This document shows positions 1-6,397 of a DNA stretch of 6,397 bases, one piece after another. Origin of the DNA: an uncultured Pseudomonadota bacterium (GTDB lineage: Bacteria > Pseudomonadota > Gammaproteobacteria > Burkholderiales > SG8-39); the NCBI GenBank assembly GCA_903895005.1, contig CAITSH010000499.1:1-6397 (forward strand), read 5' to 3'. The position numbers were made by a program, and so were the translations under genes. The notes beneath the pieces were generated by a model that was not told where the DNA came from, ran no database searches, and worked only from the letters and a program-made list of their open reading frames with translations. Every line of letters begins with the position of its first letter. Position 1 is the first letter of the stretch.

Positions 1-778
1 ACGAGGTCGGGAATTTCTGGCTGCGGTAAATGACGCGGAAGTTCTCTTCCTTGATCTGGCCGCGCTCGCCCATGCGGTGATATACGTCGGAGGCCACTGC
101 CGCGCCGTCGTAGTCACCCGAGTTCACGCCCAGGATCGATTGGTCGTGCTTGCCCGAGAACAGGATGCTGTAGTCCTTGCCCGGGGCGAGGCCTTCTTTC
201 GGGAACAGCGCCATCGGCGCCATGTGGCCGGAGTTGGACGAGGGCGAGGTGTGGGCGAACTTCTTTCCCTTTAGGTCGGAGAGCTTCTGGTAGGGGCTGT
301 CTTTCTTGACGATCACCAGCAGGTTGTAGCCCTGGAATCCCGTTTCCGTGCCCTTGACGGCAAACGGAACGGCACCGGCGATATTGACCGCGAAGGCAGT
401 GGGGCCGGTAGAGAAGCCGCCCACGTGCAGGCGGCCCGAGCGCATGGCCTCGATTTCGGCGGCGTTGGATTGCACCTGGTAGAACACAACGCGCTTTCCG
501 GTACAGGTGCCAAGGTGCTCGGTAAAGGGCTTGAACACCTTTTCGTAGACGGCCGGGTCTTCAACCGGGGTGTAGGTGAATACCAGCGTGCCGGGCGTCT
601 TGAGTTTTTTCACGTCCTTGGGCGTGTCGGCCACGAGGTCGTTGTTCTCGTCGCAGTAAAGCGGGTCGAGGTCGCCGCGGCTCTTGCAGGCGTCCTGTGC
701 CGCGGCGTGGCCGCTGAGGCCTGCGATGCAGGCGAGGGCGGCGACGAGCGCGAGGGCGCGGGTGACGGGATTGAGCAT
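1..778 (-). CDS. phnD: PhnD-type phosphate/phosphite/phosphonate ABC transporter periplasmic binding protein, 3' end outside window
   Basis: Reading leftward from ATG at 778 gives 259 residues with no stop before the window edge, so the C-terminus is missing. Residues 1-27 look like a Sec signal peptide: a short basic N-region, a hydrophobic stretch (ALALVAALACIAGL) and an AAA|QD cleavage site. The mature protein starts with a cysteine-containing segment having DLDPLYCD and DLVAD, then the periplasmic-binding fold entry TLVFTYTPVEDP. The family signature HTSPSSNSGHMAP and a later block FSGKHDQSILGVNSGDYDGA follow, as in PhnD/SsuA-like phosphonate or phosphite binders. By family it captures an oxyanion or phosphonate ligand in the periplasm and delivers it to an ABC permease, which would lie to the left. 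The start is fixed by the Shine-Dalgarno AAGGAGGA just upstream. Ligand identity cannot be read from the sequence, and the symbol denotes the family rather than proven phosphonate uptake. Confidence 0.85.
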   Translation of the reverse strand, partial: MLNPVTRALALVAALACIAGLSGHAAAQDACKSRGDLDPLYCDENNDLVADTPKDVKKLKTPGTLVFTYTPVEDPAVYEKVFKPFTEHLGTCTGKRVVFYQVQSNAAEIEAMRSGRLHVGGFSTGPTAFAVNIAGAVPFAVKGTETGFQGYNLLVIVKKDSPYQKLSDLKGKKFAHTSPSSNSGHMAPMALFPKEGLAPGKDYSILFSGKHDQSILGVNSGDYDGAAVASDVYHRMGERGQIKEENFRVIYRSQKFPTS

Positions 779-784
779 GGGTGA

Positions 785-792
785 TCCTCCTT
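785..792 (-). promoter_or_regulatory. Shine-Dalgarno of the phnD-type gene
   Basis: On the minus strand AAGGAGGA lies six bases before the ATG at 778. It is a near-perfect match to the anti-Shine-Dalgarno sequence and fixes the start in front of the signal peptide. Confidence 0.8.
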
Positions 793-918
793 CAATGAAT
801 GGTACGGGCAGTGTACGAACCGCGTATTACAGGCGGGTGAGCGCGTTGGCGTGCGCGTTTCGAACTCATTCGTTTTTTATTTTTGTTGCAGCGCACTCCC
901 GGTGACCGGGACGTCCGT

Positions 919-947
919 AATATAGACCCGCGGCGCACCCTTCGCAA
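919..947 (-). promoter_or_regulatory. Candidate sigma70 promoter for the phnD-type gene
   Basis: The minus strand reads TTGCGA (942-947), exactly 17 bases of spacer, then TATATT (919-924), close to the TTGACA/TATAAT consensus. Transcription would start near 912 and leave a leader of about 130 bases before the ATG at 778. No obvious Pho box was seen. The call rests on hexamer match and spacing only. Confidence 0.45.
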
Positions 948-1106
948 CGCCGCAGGAAGGCGTTTTCACCCTCTGGCGTGCTAACATTTGAGACCCTGTT
1001 CCCGAATTGTTCCGAAAATGCTGCGGAAAATGCGGCGCAAACGCCGGGCGACTGGGAATTCAGGTGCAAAACCGGTCCCAATTCAAGTTAAAAACGATCT
1101 GAACCC

Positions 1107-2468
1107 ATGAACGTCGTCATCCTCGCAGCCGGGCAGGGCAAGCGCATGCACTCGGATCAGCCCAAGGTGCTGCACCAGCTGGCCGGCCTCACGCTGCTCT
1201 CGCATGTGGTCACCGCCGCGCGCGCGCTCAAGCCCGCGCGCATTGTGGTCGTTTACGGCCATGGCGGCGAGCGGGTGCGCGAAGCCTTTTCTGCCGAGGC
1301 AGACCTGGCATGGGTCAAGCAGGAGCCGCAACTTGGAACTGGTCACGCCGTGATGCAGGCGGTGCCGCTGCTCGATGACAAAGTACCCACGCTGGTGCTC
1401 TACGGTGATGTGCCGCTGATCCGGTCGGTGACCCTGCAGCGCCTGATTGAGGCGGCGGGCGAGGGTGTCGGACTTCTTACCGTCGAGCTTGATGATCCGG
1501 AGGGTTACGGCCGTATTGTTCGCAGTCGCGGCAAGGTGACGCGCATCGTCGAGCAAAAAGACGCCACTGATAAGCAGCTGGAAATTCGCGAGACCAACAC
1601 CGGCATCATGGTGCTGCCGACCAAGCAACTGAAAGCCTGGCTGACCAGGCTCAAGAACGACAACGCGCAAAAAGAGTATTACCTCACCGATGTGATCGCC
1701 GCAGCGGTCAAGGCCAAGGTCGCGGTGGAAACCGCCGCCCCGGACATCGTCTGGGAAACCACCGGCGTCAACAGCAAGCCGCAGCTGGCTGAACTTGAGC
1801 GCATCTACCAGTTCGAAGTGGCCGACATGCTGATGGAAGACGGTGTCACGCTGTTCGATCCTTCGCGCATCGACGTGCGCGGCCGCCTCACCTTCGGCCG
1901 CGATGTGTCCATCGACGTCAATTGCGTGTTCGAGGGCGATGTGACCCTGGGTGACGGCGTCACCATCGGACCCCATTGTGTGTTGAAGAACGTGCGCATC
2001 GCCGCCGGCACGCGTGTCGAGGCGTTTTGCCATTTTGAAGATGCGGTCATCGGTGCCAATTGCCGCCTCGGGCCCTACGCGCGCATCCGTCCCGGCACAA
2101 AGCTCGCCGAGGACGTGCACATTGGTAACTTCACCGAGGTCAAGAACAGCGACATCGGTGCTGGCTCCAAGGCGAATCACCTTGCCTATGTTGGTGACAG
2201 CACGGTGGGGCGCAACGTTAACGTCGGTGCCGGGACCATCACCTGCAATTACGATGGCGCCAACAAGCACCGCACGATCATTGAAGATGACGTGTTCATT
2301 GGCTCGGACACGCAGCTTGTCGCGCCGGTGCGTGTCGGGCGTGGCGCCACACTGGGCGCCGGCACCACCCTCACCAAGGATGCACCGGCCGACCAGCTCA
2401 CCATCTCGCGCGCCAAGCAGGTGAGCATCCCCGGCTGGAAACGCCCGGTGAAACAGCCCAAGTCCTGA
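1107..2468 (+). CDS. glmU: Bifunctional GlmU: GlcNAc-1-phosphate uridyltransferase / glucosamine-1-phosphate acetyltransferase
   Basis: This cytoplasmic enzyme makes UDP-GlcNAc in two steps: acetyl-CoA-dependent acetylation of glucosamine-1-phosphate, then UTP-dependent uridylyl transfer. At 453 residues it is essentially full length (E. coli 456). The N-terminal pyrophosphorylase domain (about 1-225) shows LAAGQGKRM at 6-14, K20, QLGTGHA at 75-81, the metal-binding Asp in YGDVPL (D101), NTGIMV at 164-169 and N222. The C-terminal left-handed beta-helix acetyltransferase (about 245-440) keeps R328, K346, H358, Y361 and the N381/Y382 pair, matching E. coli R333, K351, H363, Y366, N386 and Y387. 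The C-terminus is the usual [16 protein letters not shown]. The ribosome site before ATG 1107 is weak, but starting here places the nucleotide-binding loop correctly. It is the first gene of a probable operon that ends with glmS. A long antisense open frame over it is a G+C-rich codon shadow. Confidence 0.97.
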
Positions 2469-2475
2469 TGCGCTG

Positions 2476-3366
2476 ATGGACAAGCTCCAGCACGAGATGC
2501 AGCACACGCTGGACGACCTGTTGCTGTTTGCCGGTGACCAATTGGTGGTCGCCTGCCAGGAGCGTATCGCCGTACTGCTGGCCCAGCCCGAGTACGCCGA
2601 TCCGCGCCGGCTCGAGCGCTTCGGCTTCAAGGGCTACTCGCAGCAGGATGAGGACGGCATCCTGCAGGAGATTTTCCGCCGTATCGGTTTTGGCAGCGGG
2701 GAGGATGCGCGTCGCTTTGTCGAGATTGGCGTCGGTGACGGCCTTGAGAACAACACGCTTTACCTGCTCTACCAGGGCTGGCGCGGATTGTGGATCGATG
2801 CCGACCAGGACCGTTGTGCCGCGATTCGCGCGCGCTTTGCCGCACCTCTCGCCAATGGCGAATTGCAGCTCGCGCAGGCGATCGTCAATGCCGAAAACAT
2901 CAACGGGCTGATCGCCGCGGCCGGGATCGGGCGCACCGGTGGCAAGGGTGCCGGCGGCGAGATCGACTTGCTGAGCGTTGATATCGACGGCAACGACTAT
3001 TACGTGCTCGATGCCATTCTCAAGCAGGGCGATGTGTCACCGCGCGTGGTGGTGGTCGAGTACAACGCGCGCTTTCGTCCGCCCGTAAAACTGGTACAGC
3101 CCTACGCCCCGCTGTATTCGTGGGACGGCAGCGATTACTTTGGCGCGTCGTTGTGCGCCATGAGCGAACTGGCGCAACAATGCGGCTATCGACTTGTCGC
3201 GACCAACCTCACCGGCGTGAATGCATTTTTCGTGCGCGAGGATCTCGCCGGCGCGCACTTCATGCCGGCAGACGCGGCCCTGCTGTTTAATCCGGCGCGC
3301 TATCGCCTGATTCCCGGTTTTGACAACGGGCACCGTCCCAACTTCGGCGCTTATTTGCGCAAATGA
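2476..3366 (+). CDS. FkbM-like SAM-dependent methyltransferase-fold protein between glmU and glmS
   Basis: The 296-residue protein has no visible signal peptide or membrane segment, so it is probably cytoplasmic. After an N-terminal helical region (about 1-45), [17 protein letters not shown] (51-67) leads into FVEIGVGDG (81-89). This resembles SAM-binding motif I, with acidic WIDAD (106-110) at the end of the next strand as expected for ribose contact. [18 protein letters not shown] (164-181), [10 protein letters not shown] (191-200) and NAFFVRED (249-256) look like later strands of a Rossmann-like methyltransferase fold. The pattern recalls FkbM-type methyltransferases and related uncharacterised proteins near surface-polysaccharide genes, but acceptor and activity are unknown. 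ATG 2476 lies 7 bases after the glmU stop and has a poor Shine-Dalgarno, so translation may be coupled to glmU. The gene ends 25 bases before glmS. Placement between two UDP-GlcNAc pathway genes suggests, by inference only, a cell-envelope role. Confidence 0.65.
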
Positions 3367-3378
3367 ACAGTCACAGAA

Positions 3379-3384
3379 AGAAGG
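3379..3384 (+). promoter_or_regulatory. Shine-Dalgarno that sets the glmS start
   Basis: AGAAGG lies seven bases before ATG 3392. It supports starting GlmS there, so that the second residue is the catalytic cysteine. A 24-codon in-frame upstream extension would overlap the preceding gene and bury that cysteine. Confidence 0.75.
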
Positions 3385-3391
3385 TTCCCCC

Positions 3392-5221
3392 ATGTGCGGC
3401 ATCGTCGGCGCCATCGCCAAACGTAACGTAGTACCCATTTTGCTCGAAGGCCTGAAGCGCCTCGAGTACCGCGGCTACGACTCGGCCGGTGTGGCCGTGG
3501 TGAAGGACGGCAAGTTGCTGCGCATGCGCTCGACCGGGCGCGTGGCTGAACTGGAAAAGCTGGCGCAGGCCGGCGCGCTCGCGGGCGCGCTTGGCATCGC
3601 GCACACGCGCTGGGCCACCCACGGCGTGCCCTCCGAAAAAAACGCCCACCCGCATGTCTCTGGCAATGTTTCGGTGGTGCATAACGGCATCATCGAGAAC
3701 CACGACGGCATGCGCGAGGGGCTGCGCGCCAAGGGATATGTGTTTGTCTCGGACACCGACACCGAGGTCATCGCCCACCTGGTGCACGCCAAGCTTGCGG
3801 GCGGCGCCGGGCTGCTTGAGGCGGTGCGCCTCGCCGTGCAGGAACTTACCGGCGCTTACGCCATTGCCGTGGTCGATGCCGCCGACCCGTCCTGCCTGGT
3901 GGTGGCGCGCAACGGCGCACCGCTGCTGTTGGGCCTGGGGGAGGGTGAAAACTTCGCCGGTTCCGACATGTCGGCGCTGATCCAGGTGACCAAGCGGGTG
4001 ATTTACCTCGAGGACGGCGATGTCGCGGAAATAAGGCTCGACGGCATTCGCATCATCGACGCCGCGGGCAAGCCGGTGGAGCGCGCCACGCACGAGTCCA
4101 GGCTCACCGCCGATGCGGTTGAGCTGGGCCAATACGACCATTACATGCAAAAGGAAATCTTCGAGCAGCCGATGGCGGTGGCCAACACCCTCGAAATCGT
4201 CACCGGCGCGCATTCGATTTCGCCGCAGATTTTCGGCGCCGGGGCGGAAAAGATATTTGCCGATATTGATGCGGTGCTGATCCTCGCCTGCGGCACCAGT
4301 TACCACTCTGGCATGGTGGCGCGCTACTGGCTCGAGGGCGTCGCCGGCATTCCCTGCAACGTCGAGATCGCCAGCGAATACCGTTATCGCGAGTCGGTGC
4401 CCAACCCGCGCGCGTTGGTGATCGCCATCTCGCAGTCGGGCGAGACCGCCGACACGCTGGCGGCGTTGCAGCACGCCAGGGCGCTGGGCCACAAATATTG
4501 CCTGTCGATTTGCAACGTGCCCGAATCGGCGCTGATCCGCGCCGCCGACCTGCGCTTTTTGACGCGCGCCGGCCCGGAGATCGGCGTCGCCTCGACCAAG
4601 GCTTTCACCACCCAGCTCGCCGCGCTGGTGCTGCTGACCTTGACGCTGGCCAAGATGCGCAAACGCCTCTCGCCCGCGCGCGAGGCCGAACTGCTGCTGG
4701 CCTTGCGCCACCTGCCCAAGGCCCTCGAAAAGGTGCTGCACATCGAACCGCAGGTCAAGGCCTGGGCGGACAAATTCACCCACAAGCATCACGCCTTGTT
4801 TCTTGGCCGCGGCATCCACTACCCGATCGCCATGGAAGGCGCGCTCAAGTTAAAGGAAATCTCCTACATTCACGCCGAGGCGTATGCGGCCGGTGAATTG
4901 AAGCACGGGCCGCTCGCCCTGGTGGACAAGGACATGCCGGTGGTTGCGGTGGCGCCCAACAACGCGTTGCTGGGCAAGTTGCGGTCCAACTTGCAGGAGG
5001 TGCACGCGCGCGGCGGCCAGTTGTTCGTGTTTGCCGACGAGGACACCGAGCGCACCGGCAAGGAGCCGGTCGAGGTTATCCTGCTGCCCGAGCACGCCGG
5101 CATCCTCTCGCCCATACTGCACACCATTCCGCTGCAACTCCTGGCCTATCATGTGGCACTTTCGCGCGGCAACGACGTCGACAAGCCGCGCAACCTCGCC
5201 AAGAGCGTGACGGTGGAGTAA
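3392..5221 (+). CDS. glmS: Glutamine:fructose-6-phosphate aminotransferase (isomerizing), GlmS
   Basis: This cytoplasmic enzyme converts fructose-6-phosphate plus glutamine to glucosamine-6-phosphate plus glutamate, the committed step of UDP-GlcNAc synthesis. The product is 609 residues, the same length as E. coli GlmS. The N-terminal Ntn glutaminase domain begins MCGIVGA, with Cys2 as nucleophile after Met removal. It includes HTRWATHG (71-78), HPHVSG (86-91), NGIIEN (98-103) and SDTDTE (120-125). Two SIS sugar-isomerase domains follow. The first has [10 protein letters not shown] (298-307), [10 protein letters not shown] (346-355) and ASTKAF (400-405). The second has [10 protein letters not shown] and [20 protein letters not shown], with Lys486, Glu489 and His505 corresponding to E. 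coli K485, E488 and H504 in mature numbering. The C-terminus [13 protein letters not shown] is nearly invariant. It is the third gene of the glmU cluster. No glmS riboswitch precedes it, only a 25-base gap. Its 3' end is the usual target of Tn7-family insertion, and the DNA composition changes immediately after its stop. Confidence 0.98.
5186..5221 (+). other. attTn7-type attachment region at the glmS 3' end
   Basis: In characterised Tn7 elements TnsD binds the last few dozen bases of glmS and insertion falls about 25 bases past the stop codon. The conserved [11 protein letters not shown] codons are present here, and foreign-looking DNA starts right after the stop. The presence of a target is established by homology. 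Its actual use in this genome is inferred from composition alone, because no Tn7 end or target-site duplication was identified. Confidence 0.4.
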
Positions 5222-5239
5222 TCCCGTTAGGGGGTAGTC

Positions 5240-5262
5240 GAGACGGCTTTCTAGTCCGTTTC
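5240..5262 (+). repeat. Short hairpin just after glmS
   Basis: GAGACGG (5240-5246), a nine-base loop and CCGTTTC (5256-5262) form a seven-pair stem with one G-T wobble. It begins 19 bases after the glmS stop, but no T-run follows, so it is a poor intrinsic terminator. It might slow polymerase, protect the mRNA 3' end or mark the element edge. A competing pairing exists between TAGTCC (5252-5257) and GGACTA (5276-5281). Confidence 0.35.
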
Positions 5263-5289
5263 AGCTTGGTGGTTAGGACTAAGGGGTTG

Positions 5290-5550
5290 ATGATCGGCTC
5301 CTATTCAGCCTACCAAACAGAGCTGTCTGATCGAATCATCCGACTAAGGGACTCAGAGGGACTTACCTACCGAGCTATAGCCGATTTATTGATTGAGGAG
5401 GGGTATAGGTCACCCCGAGGGTTCGATCTCGGTCCAGAGAGCGTTTTCTCAATCTATAAAAAGCGAAAAAAAAGGGATACCAGATTGAACGGTATCCCTA
5501 AGGTGGAAATTGAAGATCTAGAAGTCATAAGGTTCCAACAAACGACCTAG
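5290..5550 (+). CDS. Small protein resembling the helix-turn-helix 'Recombinase' segment of serine recombinases
   Basis: Starting at ATG 5290 the product is 86 residues. Residues 8-45 read as two helices and a turn: IIRLRDSEGLTYRAIADLL, then EEGYRSPRG. This matches the spacing of the PF07508-type DNA-binding segment of large serine recombinases (G-L-S/T, R-x-I-A-x-x-L, G, S/T-P-R-G). Residues 56-63 (YKKRKKRD) are strongly basic and probably contact nucleic acid. There is no serine-recombinase catalytic domain, so it cannot be a recombinase alone; a regulator, excisionase-like or accessory DNA-binding protein is more likely. The start is uncertain: TTG 5266, GTG 5269 and TTG 5287 are in frame upstream, while AAGG at 5281-5284 sits five bases before ATG 5290. 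Codons for residues 62-70 double as the stem of a minus-strand terminator. It converges on the minus-strand cluster and is the first gene of the AT-rich island. Confidence 0.6.
   Translation: MIGSYSAYQTELSDRIIRLRDSEGLTYRAIADLLIEEGYRSPRGFDLGPESVFSIYKKRKKRDTRLNGIPKVEIEDLEVIRFQQTT
5466..5499 (-). terminator. Rho-independent terminator of the minus-strand cluster
   Basis: Read on the minus strand, AGGGATACC (5491-5499), a nine-base loop and GGTATCCCT (5473-5481) form a perfect nine-pair stem. It runs directly into eight T residues (5466-5473, the first shared with the stem). This is a textbook intrinsic terminator for leftward transcription. No T-run follows the stem on the plus strand, so it is unidirectional. 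It lies inside the coding region of the opposing 5290-5550 gene, about 100 bases past the last minus-strand stop at 5598. Confidence 0.8.
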
Positions 5551-5590
5551 GAACAACGATACTCACGAATTTCAGCCGAGTACGATCACT

Positions 5591-5641
5591 ACCCTAACTA
5601 GACTGAGGGTATGACGACAACCGTTTGTTTGGAGTTAGGGT
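5591..5641. repeat. Nine-base inverted repeat at the end of the minus-strand cluster
   Basis: ACCCTAACT (5591-5599) and AGTTAGGGT (5633-5641) are perfect reverse complements 33 bases apart. The core GTTAGGG also occurs at 5226-5232, five bases past the glmS stop, followed by a similar TAGT. The repeat covers the 3' ends of both tiny minus-strand ORFs. There is no T-run, so it is not an intrinsic terminator. It might be a protein-binding site or part of an element end; its function is unknown. Confidence 0.5.
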
Positions 5642-5753
5642 TCAGGGAAATAGTGAACGACTGTTGATTGGACTTCTTGATTAGATCTAGGAGTCTGTCT
5701 TTGGTTATCGACATTCCCGATTTCTGTGCTTCCTTGACCAGTTGATTTGACAT
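5598..5753 (-). CDS. Tiny protein of 51 residues, function unknown
   Basis: From ATG 5753 the product begins MSNQLVKEAQ. It is helical and basic through about residue 27, then a polar stretch leads to a beta-like C-terminus rich in Val and Ile (TVVVIPSV). A good Shine-Dalgarno, AAGGAA at 5761-5766, lies seven bases upstream. The frame stays open to 5798 but has no better start there. It overlaps the 5635-5820 frame by 119 bases. Either the two are genuinely overlapping genes or only one is translated. A third option is one broken or frameshifted gene, since joining residues about 1-22 of the upstream ORF to this sequence needs a +1 shift. No family was recognised. It is the last gene of the minus-strand cluster before the terminator at 5466-5499. 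Confidence 0.45.
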   Translation of the reverse strand: MSNQLVKEAQKSGMSITKDRLLDLIKKSNQQSFTISLNPNSKQTVVVIPSV

Positions 5754-5820
5754 CTTTATCTTCCTTTTTCTTTTTGGGTTTCTTGGCTTCTTCAACAAGC
5801 CATTCTTTGAAACTAAGCAT
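5635..5820 (-). CDS. Tiny lysine-rich protein of 61 residues, function unknown
   Basis: ATG 5820 follows Shine-Dalgarno AAGGAG (5827-5832) by six bases. That Shine-Dalgarno overlaps the stop codon of the ribbon-helix-helix gene, which suggests coupled translation. The product begins MLSFKEWLVEEAKKPKKKKED: a short amphipathic helix, then a lysine-rich tract. After about residue 24 the composition becomes polar and featureless. That tail is where the 51-residue frame overlaps, so it may be only the shadow of that frame, with the real product shorter or frameshifted. The FKEWLVEE start loosely resembles N-terminal peptides of T4-like phage proteins, where a hydrophobic-x-Glu site can be cut by a prohead protease; this is weak resemblance only. 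Confidence 0.4.
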   Translation of the reverse strand: MLSFKEWLVEEAKKPKKKKEDKDVKSTGQGSTEIGNVDNQRQTPRSNQEVQSTVVHYFPEP

Positions 5821-5830
5821 TTCCTTCTCC

Positions 5831-6028
5831 TTAAAACAGCTCAGATCGAGCCTTCTTAAAATTTTCAGAGTTGTTCCAATGTTCGTTAAGAAAACGCTTA
5901 AGACAGTAGCGGATTACCTCAGAACGGTTATGACCTAGTCGGTCACATAACTCATCGAACTTATTAACGAATTGATTGGTTGCTCGAACACCTAGAATTT
6001 GATTTCTACTAGAGACCTTGTTGTTCAC
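5831..6028 (-). CDS. Ribbon-helix-helix (CopG/Arc-type) DNA-binding protein
   Basis: The 65-residue product starts at GTG 6028. Residues 10-15 (QILGVR) fit the DNA-contacting strand, 17-31 the first helix (FVNKFDELCDRLG) and 34-46 the second helix with the family-typical NRSEVIRYCLKRF. Such proteins dimerise, bind short operator repeats and usually repress their own promoter. In small plasmids of the pMV158 type a CopG protein controls the rep gene, which fits the HUH gene next door. The cluster order is HUH gene, this gene, then two tiny ORFs, all leftward. The 57-base gap upstream is very A+T-rich and contains two copies of ATATTTA (6055-6061 and 6082-6088), possible operator half-sites. 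An antitoxin role is possible, but neither downstream ORF resembles a known toxin. Confidence 0.75.
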   Translation of the reverse strand: MNNKVSSRNQILGVRATNQFVNKFDELCDRLGHNRSEVIRYCLKRFLNEHWNNSENFKKARSELF

Positions 6029-6033
6029 TGAAA

Positions 6034-6041
6034 CCCTCCTT
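6034..6041 (-). promoter_or_regulatory. Shine-Dalgarno that sets the GTG start of the ribbon-helix-helix gene
   Basis: The minus strand has AAGGAGGG, with its GGAGG core six bases before GTG 6028. The near-perfect ribosome site decides for this non-ATG start. Confidence 0.75.
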
Positions 6042-6051
6042 TTTTGTGGTT

Positions 6052-6082
6052 TTTATATTTAGGCGTTTTTTAACTTTCGTAA
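6052..6082 (-). promoter_or_regulatory. Weak promoter candidate before the ribbon-helix-helix gene
   Basis: On the minus strand TATAAA (6052-6057) is a reasonable -10, but the best upstream hexamer, TTACGA (6077-6082), matches only half the -35 consensus with a 19-base spacer. The region is A+T-rich and lies between two same-strand genes, so the cluster may instead be read through from the HUH gene. Confidence 0.25.
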
Positions 6083-6085
6083 TAT

Positions 6086-6397
6086 TTAAGCCCAATAGGA
6101 GTTGATGTCTCTCATAGACTTACCTTTAAGAATGTAGTTAAGCCAAGCATCTGACTCACCTGATCTAAGAGGTTCAATTAAGAAAGTTGATACACGATGT
6201 AAAGATTGAAGGTCTTTGTTCAATCTTTGGTCTAGATGTGAATTATCAAAATCGTAGATTCGGTGAGCCAGACTCTTAGGTACTGGAAAGACACCGTGAA
6301 TATGATGAGGATTGTTACGAGATGAAAGTGGCTTAAAGAAGCTACCTTGATCGTATTCATATTGGATAAAGTACTCAATTGGAATGACAGAGTTCCA
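6086..6397 (-). CDS. Putative HUH-type replication/mobilisation endonuclease, C-terminal 103 residues only
   Basis: An uninterrupted minus-strand frame enters at the window edge, codon-aligned, and ends at TAA 6086-6088; its start lies outside. In-window residues 9-16 (YFIQYEYD) look like a beta strand. They are followed by NPHHIHGVFPV (29-39), containing a His-hydrophobic-His motif (H32, H34), the metal site of HUH nucleases. Residues 88-91 (NYILKGK, Y88 and K91) fit the catalytic Tyr motif YxxK, 54 residues after the second His, as in rolling-circle Rep proteins. The protein ends 12 residues past that motif, so no superfamily-3 helicase domain follows. By family it would nick one DNA strand at an origin and attach covalently to the 5' end, for rolling-circle replication, mobilisation or transposition. 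It lies upstream of the ribbon-helix-helix gene on the same strand. The assignment rests on two short motifs and their order. Confidence 0.6.
   Translation of the reverse strand, partial: WNSVIPIEYFIQYEYDQGSFFKPLSSRNNPHHIHGVFPVPKSLAHRIYDFDNSHLDQRLNKDLQSLHRVSTFLIEPLRSGESDAWLNYILKGKSMRDINSYWA

Follow-up and report, generated by a model that had tools for sequence, protein, structure and literature searches.

Layout of the window and the HUH frame

Positions 1–6,397 of contig CAITSH010000499.1 of assembly GCA_903895005.1, from an uncultured Pseudomonadota bacterium, were analyzed (hereafter the window) and contain a host glmS gene followed by the first part of an integrated element. This part runs into an open frame that almost certainly encodes the C-terminal, catalytic half of an HUH endonuclease with a single tyrosine and about 196 aa. 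GC content drops at the glmS stop codon, from 62.8% (1–5221) to 40.9% (5222–6397), and in the AT-rich part the open reading frame ORF94, on the plus strand, faces ORF61, a ribbon-helix-helix (RHH) gene and the HUH frame, all on the minus strand. The features of the window are listed here from the HUH gene back towards position 1, with key residues numbered as in P0003, a full-length relative.

6086–6397, minus strand: HUH endonuclease gene, C-terminal 103 codons and stop, equivalent to residues 94–196 of P0003 (196 aa); the 5′ part lies beyond the window
6356–6358, minus strand: E107, a Glu without exception in the family, in the strand that precedes the HUH strand; it is a candidate for a third metal ligand
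6287–6304, minus strand: motif II, HIHGVF, with the two metal-binding histidines, H125 and H127 of P0003
6125–6136, minus strand: motif III, YILK, with the catalytic Tyr (Y181) and Lys (K184), in a predicted helix
6056–6062, minus strand: CTAAATA box upstream of the RHH gene, a possible promoter or operator
5831–6028, minus strand: RHH (CopG-like) DNA-binding protein, 65 aa
5635–5820, minus strand: ORF61, small charged protein, downstream of the RHH gene
5287–5550, plus strand: ORF94, small helical protein directly after glmS
5224–5236, plus strand: CCGTTAGGGGGTA, the left-end arm of the element
5207–5221, plus strand: GTGACGGTGGAGTAA, final glmS codons (VTVE and stop), duplicated at the far end of related elements
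3392–5221, plus strand: glmS, host gene and target of the element
2476–3366: FkbM-like gene (Pfam match below cut-off)
1107–2468: glmU, named from its sequence and its tblastn neighbors
2–778, minus strand: gene for a phosphonate-type binding protein

The 103-residue frame runs open to the end of the window and no stop interrupts it. HIHGVF begins at its residue 32 and YILK at residue 88, placing Tyr88 54 residues after His34, and Lys91 lies 12 residues before the end of the frame, as a preliminary description of this DNA had stated. The same description read the frame as a compact single-domain HUH Rep or mobilization enzyme cut by the window end, and this is borne out by the whole protein, which has about 196 aa, three motifs and no further recognized domain. 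Its remark that no start codon precedes the motifs is correct for HIHGVF, upstream of which there is no ATG, GTG or TTG, but not for YILK, since a TTG stands at residue 59; the only other such codon in frame is an ATG at residue 95.

A family of HUH proteins

The fragment alone, used as a query, found two proteins: P0001, of 157 aa, with 98% identity along the full fragment, and P0002, with 78%. The profile built from them matched 182 proteins at E≤0.1, and a 34-member profile matched 206 proteins at E≤0.01. Among the matches listed (the best 120 of the 182 and the best 120 of the 206), the relatives found with the first profile are mostly 190–216 aa long, none carries a precomputed Pfam domain, and the database names, where given, are hypothetical. 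Pairwise identity averages 59% (minimum 33%) in an alignment of 150 sequences, comprising 143 fetched proteins, six genome loci and the window, and E107, H125, H127, Y181 and K184 are identical in all 150. The ~196-aa protein has the motifs FTxTVTFK (I), HHIHG (II) and YxxK (III); for the motif I residues W46, F49, T52, F55 and K56, conservation ranges from 136 to 145 out of about 147 sequences. The five invariant residues are also kept in a second, divergent group of 169–171 aa, found at loci L022, L029, L030, L031 and L032, and 16 columns, these five included, are invariant across 13 genome loci and P0003. A TAG was flagged in three shorter HUH proteins; at L022, the one inspected, it is the frame's own end after YILKGK.

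SIRV1 ORF119 (PDB 2x3g, with the PDB title hypothetical protein), which we take to be an HUH Rep, is together with ribosomal protein S6 the best match of the predicted model in the VIA list, both having a ferredoxin-like arrangement. Most rows of that list are ribosomal protein S6, and no HUH enzyme other than 2x3g was recognized among its best 50 rows. ORF119 is an archaeal virus protein, and the match has 15% identity; PDB sequence searches with the HUH protein gave nothing credible and detected no relation between the two. At the level of secondary structure, on which the active-site geometry raised in the preliminary description was examined, the order of strands and helices in the model fits a ferredoxin-like (RRM-like) fold, H125 and H127 are predicted to sit on strand 125–133, and Y181 is predicted to lie inside helix 172–183. 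A catalytic Tyr in YxxK/H on a helix characterizes the HUH superfamily, according to the accessible text of PMC5714925.

The HUH protein matched nothing in the Pfam, PHROGs and NCBIfam profile libraries. The HUH families of Pfam (Rep_1, Rep_2, Phage_GPA, Y1_Tnp, relaxases and others) gave no match to any of the 34 profile members at E values up to 10, the rows returned being scattered, chance-level matches to unrelated families. Plasmid Reps (Rep_1, Rep_2), phage Phage_GPA and YagK_YfjJ_C have motif I, the HUH motif and a Tyr on a helix in common with this family, but Pfam gave no match to them. Profile-profile comparison with YagK_YfjJ_C and Phage_GPA gave probabilities of 0.2% and 0.1%, a weak test in that the positive control between those two itself reached only 10.5%. 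Rep_trans (PF02486), with its Tyr in a beta sheet and three acidic metal ligands, was rejected on the predicted position of the Tyr on a helix and on the absence of a Pfam match. The fragment had no tblastn match in phages and plasmids, and viral contigs yielded none in scans with HUH, RHH and ORF238; as these scans used a few exact peptide patterns, and a first scan of genome contigs with the fragment alone was likewise empty, they do not show that viruses lack the gene.

Distribution and gene neighborhood

The HUH gene is a core gene of small integrative islands of Burkholderiales. A profile scan of genome contigs gave six loci, in Zwartia panacis, Sheuella amnicola, a Comamonas metagenome-assembled genome (MAG), two beta-proteobacterial MAGs and Polynucleobacter (Zwartia, Sheuella and Polynucleobacter being Burkholderiales), and genome surveys added seven more (G448, G1066, G1061, G1151, G1063, G1089 and G1172), for 13 in total. 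Surveys with the HUH profile found the gene in 2/268, 2/398, 1/399, 9/186 and 2/103 genomes of overlapping sets, so that it is rare in reference genomes; the large serine recombinase described below was found in 3/151.

The element is flanked by glmS at seven of the 13 loci (L001, L002, L003, L004, L006, L032 and L033). At L021 the available piece stops short of glmS, and the large recombinase is the same as at the glmS-site loci. Outside glmS sites, too, the HUH core is found, there together with tyrosine integrases: tyrosine-integrase-type ORFs lie near the HUH gene in L005, L022, L029, L030 and L031, with a tRNA-Met in the same piece in L022, L029 and L031. These integrases were called from family matches for L005, L022 and L029 (weak Pfam matches below cut-offs for L005 and L022) and from similarity to L005 or L022 for L030 and L031.

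Several of the pieces end before the expected gene positions, and with that limit the neighbors number, over the 13 loci, 12 for RHH (the exception is L029), ten for ORF238, nine for ORF61 (as tblastn relatives) and eight for a small serine recombinase. The L029 segment 9751–12213 is a possible minimal version: its HUH gene, of 169 aa, is accompanied by a tRNA-Met and a tyrosine integrase, and both RHH and ORF238 are missing.

The window RHH protein matches PF01402 at 6.4e-4, just under the cut-off, and phrog_876 at 1.2e-5. It may serve in copy control, as an autorepressor or as a relaxosome partner; RepB of pMV158 is a Rep paired with a small RHH regulator, CopG, as the HUH and RHH proteins are here. 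ORF61 has no family match in Pfam or PHROGs. ORF94, which has 87 aa if it begins where its relatives do and 94 aa from a TTG at 5266, is conserved about 50–70 nt past glmS and shows weak similarity to the Recombinase domain and to sigma region 4; it is possibly an attachment-site or directionality factor, and it had no match in plasmids. ORF238 (L001 6982–7698, L021 10268–11017 and others) belongs to no known family, and its C-terminus is usually (L/K)G(L/V/A/M)FP, loosely like a clamp-binding motif. Its predicted model (predicted local distance difference test score, pLDDT, 72) matched nothing below E 0.4. Relatives of ORF238 with about 35% identity are present on three Bradyrhizobium plasmids; on the one examined, the gene is near a CyRepA1-type replication gene and no comparable HUH or recombinase gene is annotated nearby.

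Integration at the end of glmS

The preliminary description had placed the HUH gene in an element at attTn7, and the element does adjoin the 3′ end of glmS; this can be refined, in that the elements at the glmS end have a large serine recombinase whose gene runs up to the boundary, and among the genes examined none was recognized as a Tn7-type transposase. The protein scans covered a subset of the ORFs, with many small ones outside, and neither the gene lists nor the proteins scanned contained TnsABC-type genes. In L001, L004 and L006 (far ends L013, L014 and L015) it is the far boundary at which the large serine recombinase ends, and the L013 protein shows Resolvase, Recombinase and zinc-ribbon domains. 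In L013 (2132–3865) and L015 (472–2193) its C-terminus, SVTVE, is also the C-terminus of glmS, and the end of the recombinase gene therefore belongs to the duplicated attachment sequence; the recombinase frame ends earlier in L014 and L002.

The final glmS codons (near GTTACGGTGGAGTRA) are present at both ends of the element, and the arms beside them carry GGGGGT or a close form, pointing inward. An empty site in G1067 (L035) has glmS joined straight to the flank, which matches the far flank of L006 at 76% from exactly those codons on. Four islands with both ends seen extend from the glmS stop to the far end over about 15.3 kb (L001), 13.8 kb (L004), 14.0 kb (L006) and 9.7 kb (L002), an island size of about 10–15 kb.

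In L002 (2447–12143) and L033 (2641–12443) the recombinase side adjoins glmS and ORF94 is at the far end, L033 keeping a recombinase remnant only, and in L036 (G1049, 416–780) ORF94 adjoins a flank of the far type. The orientation of the element at glmS is therefore not fixed, and inversion or two-way integration may account for the opposite arrangement. Tn7 and Tn7-like elements at attTn7 insert at the 3′ end of glmS as these islands do; unlike Tn7, the islands have serine recombinases, duplicated last glmS codons at the far end, and both orientations. The window also has its FkbM-like gene between glmU and glmS, which is absent from that position in related loci where both genes are seen.

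T4-type clamp and loader, and cargo genes

Upstream of the HUH gene, three of the 13 loci (L001, L004 and L021) encode a gp45-type sliding clamp, matching phrog_223 at 3.8e-42 (L001) and 1e-40 (L021) and PDB 1b77 at 1.8e-15 (L001); that of L004 was found by tblastn with the L001 clamp (1e-31). A gp44/RFC-type clamp loader is present in five loci (L001, L004, L021, L006 and L003), with matches to phrog_168 of 6.7e-43 (L001) and 2.7e-43 (L021). L006 has the loader and no recognized clamp, and in L003 the last 20 residues of the loader lie near the contig edge (tblastn 2e-4) with the HUH gene next. Other, mutually related ORFs occupy the clamp/loader position in L002, L005 and L033.

The island clamp is about 30% identical to phage (T4-type gp45) clamps. 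The loader (L001 8499–9110, L021 12243–12893) differs from T4-type gp44 in that its match to the phage profile stops roughly two thirds of the way along, the collar part seemingly missing, and no polymerase was recognized beside clamp and loader among the proteins scanned. A separate ORF of 143/176 aa without recognized identity follows the loader in L021 and L006.

Fifteen chosen cargo proteins from eight elements were compared with PADLOC at a threshold of 1e-3, and 14 match a model. Clear matches are to type I restriction-modification (R-M; L033), type III R-M (L004), type IIG/I R-M with PDC-S18 (L021), type II methylases (L002 and L031), ZorA, ZorB and ZorC (L005) and PDC-S37 (L001). The match of the L006 protein, at 9.4e-4, is marginal, and a protein of L002 has no PADLOC match. 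A lone methylase is no proof of a defense system, and from these matches the HUH islands appear often to carry anti-phage defense genes. L001 also has, at 12593–13440 between ORF86 and the core, a PIN-domain protein and a 135-aa protein with a weak HEPN match, a possible toxin-antitoxin or defense pair. Similar-looking small ORFs stand in the same order, by eye, in L005 10357–12746 (with a tyrosine-integrase-like ORF) and L021 17927–19816 (with serine recombinases), which suggests that these two share cargo beyond the core.

The region upstream of the HUH gene

In all but two of the 13 loci, L006 and L029 being the exceptions, the pattern ATAGTNWWACG precedes the HUH start by 127–157 nt. A count over both strands of 243 kb of these loci gives 12 occurrences, 11 of them at the upstream position, against a base-composition expectation of about 2.9 in total and 0.002 per 300 nt; the pattern was derived from the same data and later widened. 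A narrower form, fixed before L029–L033 were fetched, holds in three of these five, of which L030 resembles L022 and L033 resembles L002. The L021 version is TAGTATTAC, which we take to be a form of the nick site of circular single-stranded DNA viruses, and ATAGTTTTACG upstream of the HUH gene is a candidate nick site. Most related loci have the CTAAATA box ahead of RHH, and several have it ahead of HUH; since it also precedes RHH, a promoter or operator role is possible.

The preliminary description had also proposed looking for a nicking hairpin upstream, and here the conserved motif is present but the hairpin proposed around CTTGTTT does no better than its controls. Over eight sequences 68.8% of its cells pair, a value reached by 115 of 500 shuffles; the covariation that had seemed present by eye has a score reached by 65 of 500 shuffles; an alignment slid by +3 outscores it (0.565 vs 0.310); and the sequences of L002 and L033 could not be aligned with it. 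Folding six upstream regions as single strands gave z from +0.61 to −2.36, with only L003 under −2, and Rfam on six sources gave no match at gathering thresholds, with sub-threshold rows at L003 only.

A proposed model for the HUH islands

The kind of enzyme, an HUH endonuclease, is already known. As far as the literature searched goes, neither the family nor its islands appear to have been described, and the same holds for the combination with a T4-type clamp and loader; within that scope, which left out most subscription journals and bioRxiv, no paper describing the element was found by title or abstract start.

The HUH protein most likely starts the copying of the island by rolling circle after excision, and we regard a role in replication as probable. 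The gene retains RHH as a neighbor, and as a rule also ORF238, ORF61 and the small recombinase, even where the integrase and the target differ, which points to a role in the life of the excised circle more than in integration. The island would be excised as a circle, at glmS by a large serine recombinase and at other sites by a tyrosine integrase; the HUH protein would then nick a single strand at an origin immediately ahead of the HUH gene, stay on the 5′ end via Y181, and start rolling-circle replication. The RHH protein may limit HUH expression or island copy number, the small serine recombinase could resolve multimers, and in some islands the self-encoded T4-type clamp and loader might add processivity or capture a phage replisome. 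Of this picture, the data show the family with its invariant residues and predicted fold, the genes around it, the duplication of the glmS end and an empty site, whereas nicking, the origin, replication and what RHH, the small recombinase, the clamp and the loader do are inferences.

Alternatively, the HUH protein could be a mobilization relaxase that nicks an oriT near its own gene, a co-resident conjugative element transferring the excised island with RHH as relaxosome partner. The motifs suit both uses, and HUH motifs and sequence alone cannot separate replication from mobilization. Relaxosomes often include an RHH protein, and the lack of a recognized polymerase among the proteins scanned fits this reading as well. 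Small integrative and mobilizable elements are common, as far as the listings of PMC5704250 and PMC7563843 show. However, no relaxase family, coupling protein or transfer gene was recognized among the proteins scanned, and the clamp and loader beside the HUH gene point to replication. We favor rolling-circle replication over conjugal mobilization because replication genes adjoin HUH, and consider a relaxase unlikely.

A very improbable reading is that HUH itself acts as transposase or integrase, inserting the element at the end of glmS in the manner of IS200/IS605 or Helitron-type enzymes: its weak Foldseek matches do include Y1-transposase structures (2xo6, 2xma and 2vhg, E about 0.1), but at glmS the large serine recombinase ends at the far boundary, and in five other loci HUH relatives accompany tyrosine integrases. 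Hardly credible is a decayed remnant or a chance motif match, already refuted for the family, for although the window copy is incomplete with its 5′ part outside, the frame is cut by the window end and not by a stop, and the 98%-identical 157-aa relative, the 196-aa relatives and the catalytic residues kept in 150/150 make the fragment more than chance.

An extension of the replication model, which we put forward tentatively, is that the islands are a new class of T4-like phage satellites, in which the HUH Rep would nick the circle, the island's own clamp and shortened gp44-type loader would recruit to the island the polymerase of an infecting phage (or the clamp-dependent late transcription of that phage), and exchangeable defense cargo would protect the host from competing phages. 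No packaging or capsid-hijack genes were recognized among the proteins scanned. Phage-inducible chromosomal minimalist islands (PICMIs) are small phage satellites that protect their hosts from other phages and whose replication is consistent with a plasmid-like rolling circle, and Methylophilaceae tycheposons extend from tRNA-Met to glmS and contain xerD, according to the accessible texts of PMC10803314 and PMC10872708, respectively. Like the HUH islands, both are small integrative elements; unlike them, PICMIs have a core of int, alpA and prim at fis (PMC10803314), and the same texts describe neither PICMIs nor tycheposons with an HUH gene or a T4-type clamp.

The searches delimit an HUH family that is large, with 206 proteins at E≤0.01, and goes unrecognized by Pfam, PHROGs and NCBIfam; it is easily overlooked because its listed members, where named, are called hypothetical. 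The family is tied to small, often defense-carrying islands at the end of glmS or beside tRNA-Met, and an HUH initiator with a T4-type clamp and loader, and with no polymerase recognized beside them, offers a testable model for the copying of a satellite-like island. If the islands are indeed satellites, a rolling-circle initiator would be combined in them with a clamp and loader of T4 type, and the island would target the final glmS codons via a recombinase whose C-terminus copies them.
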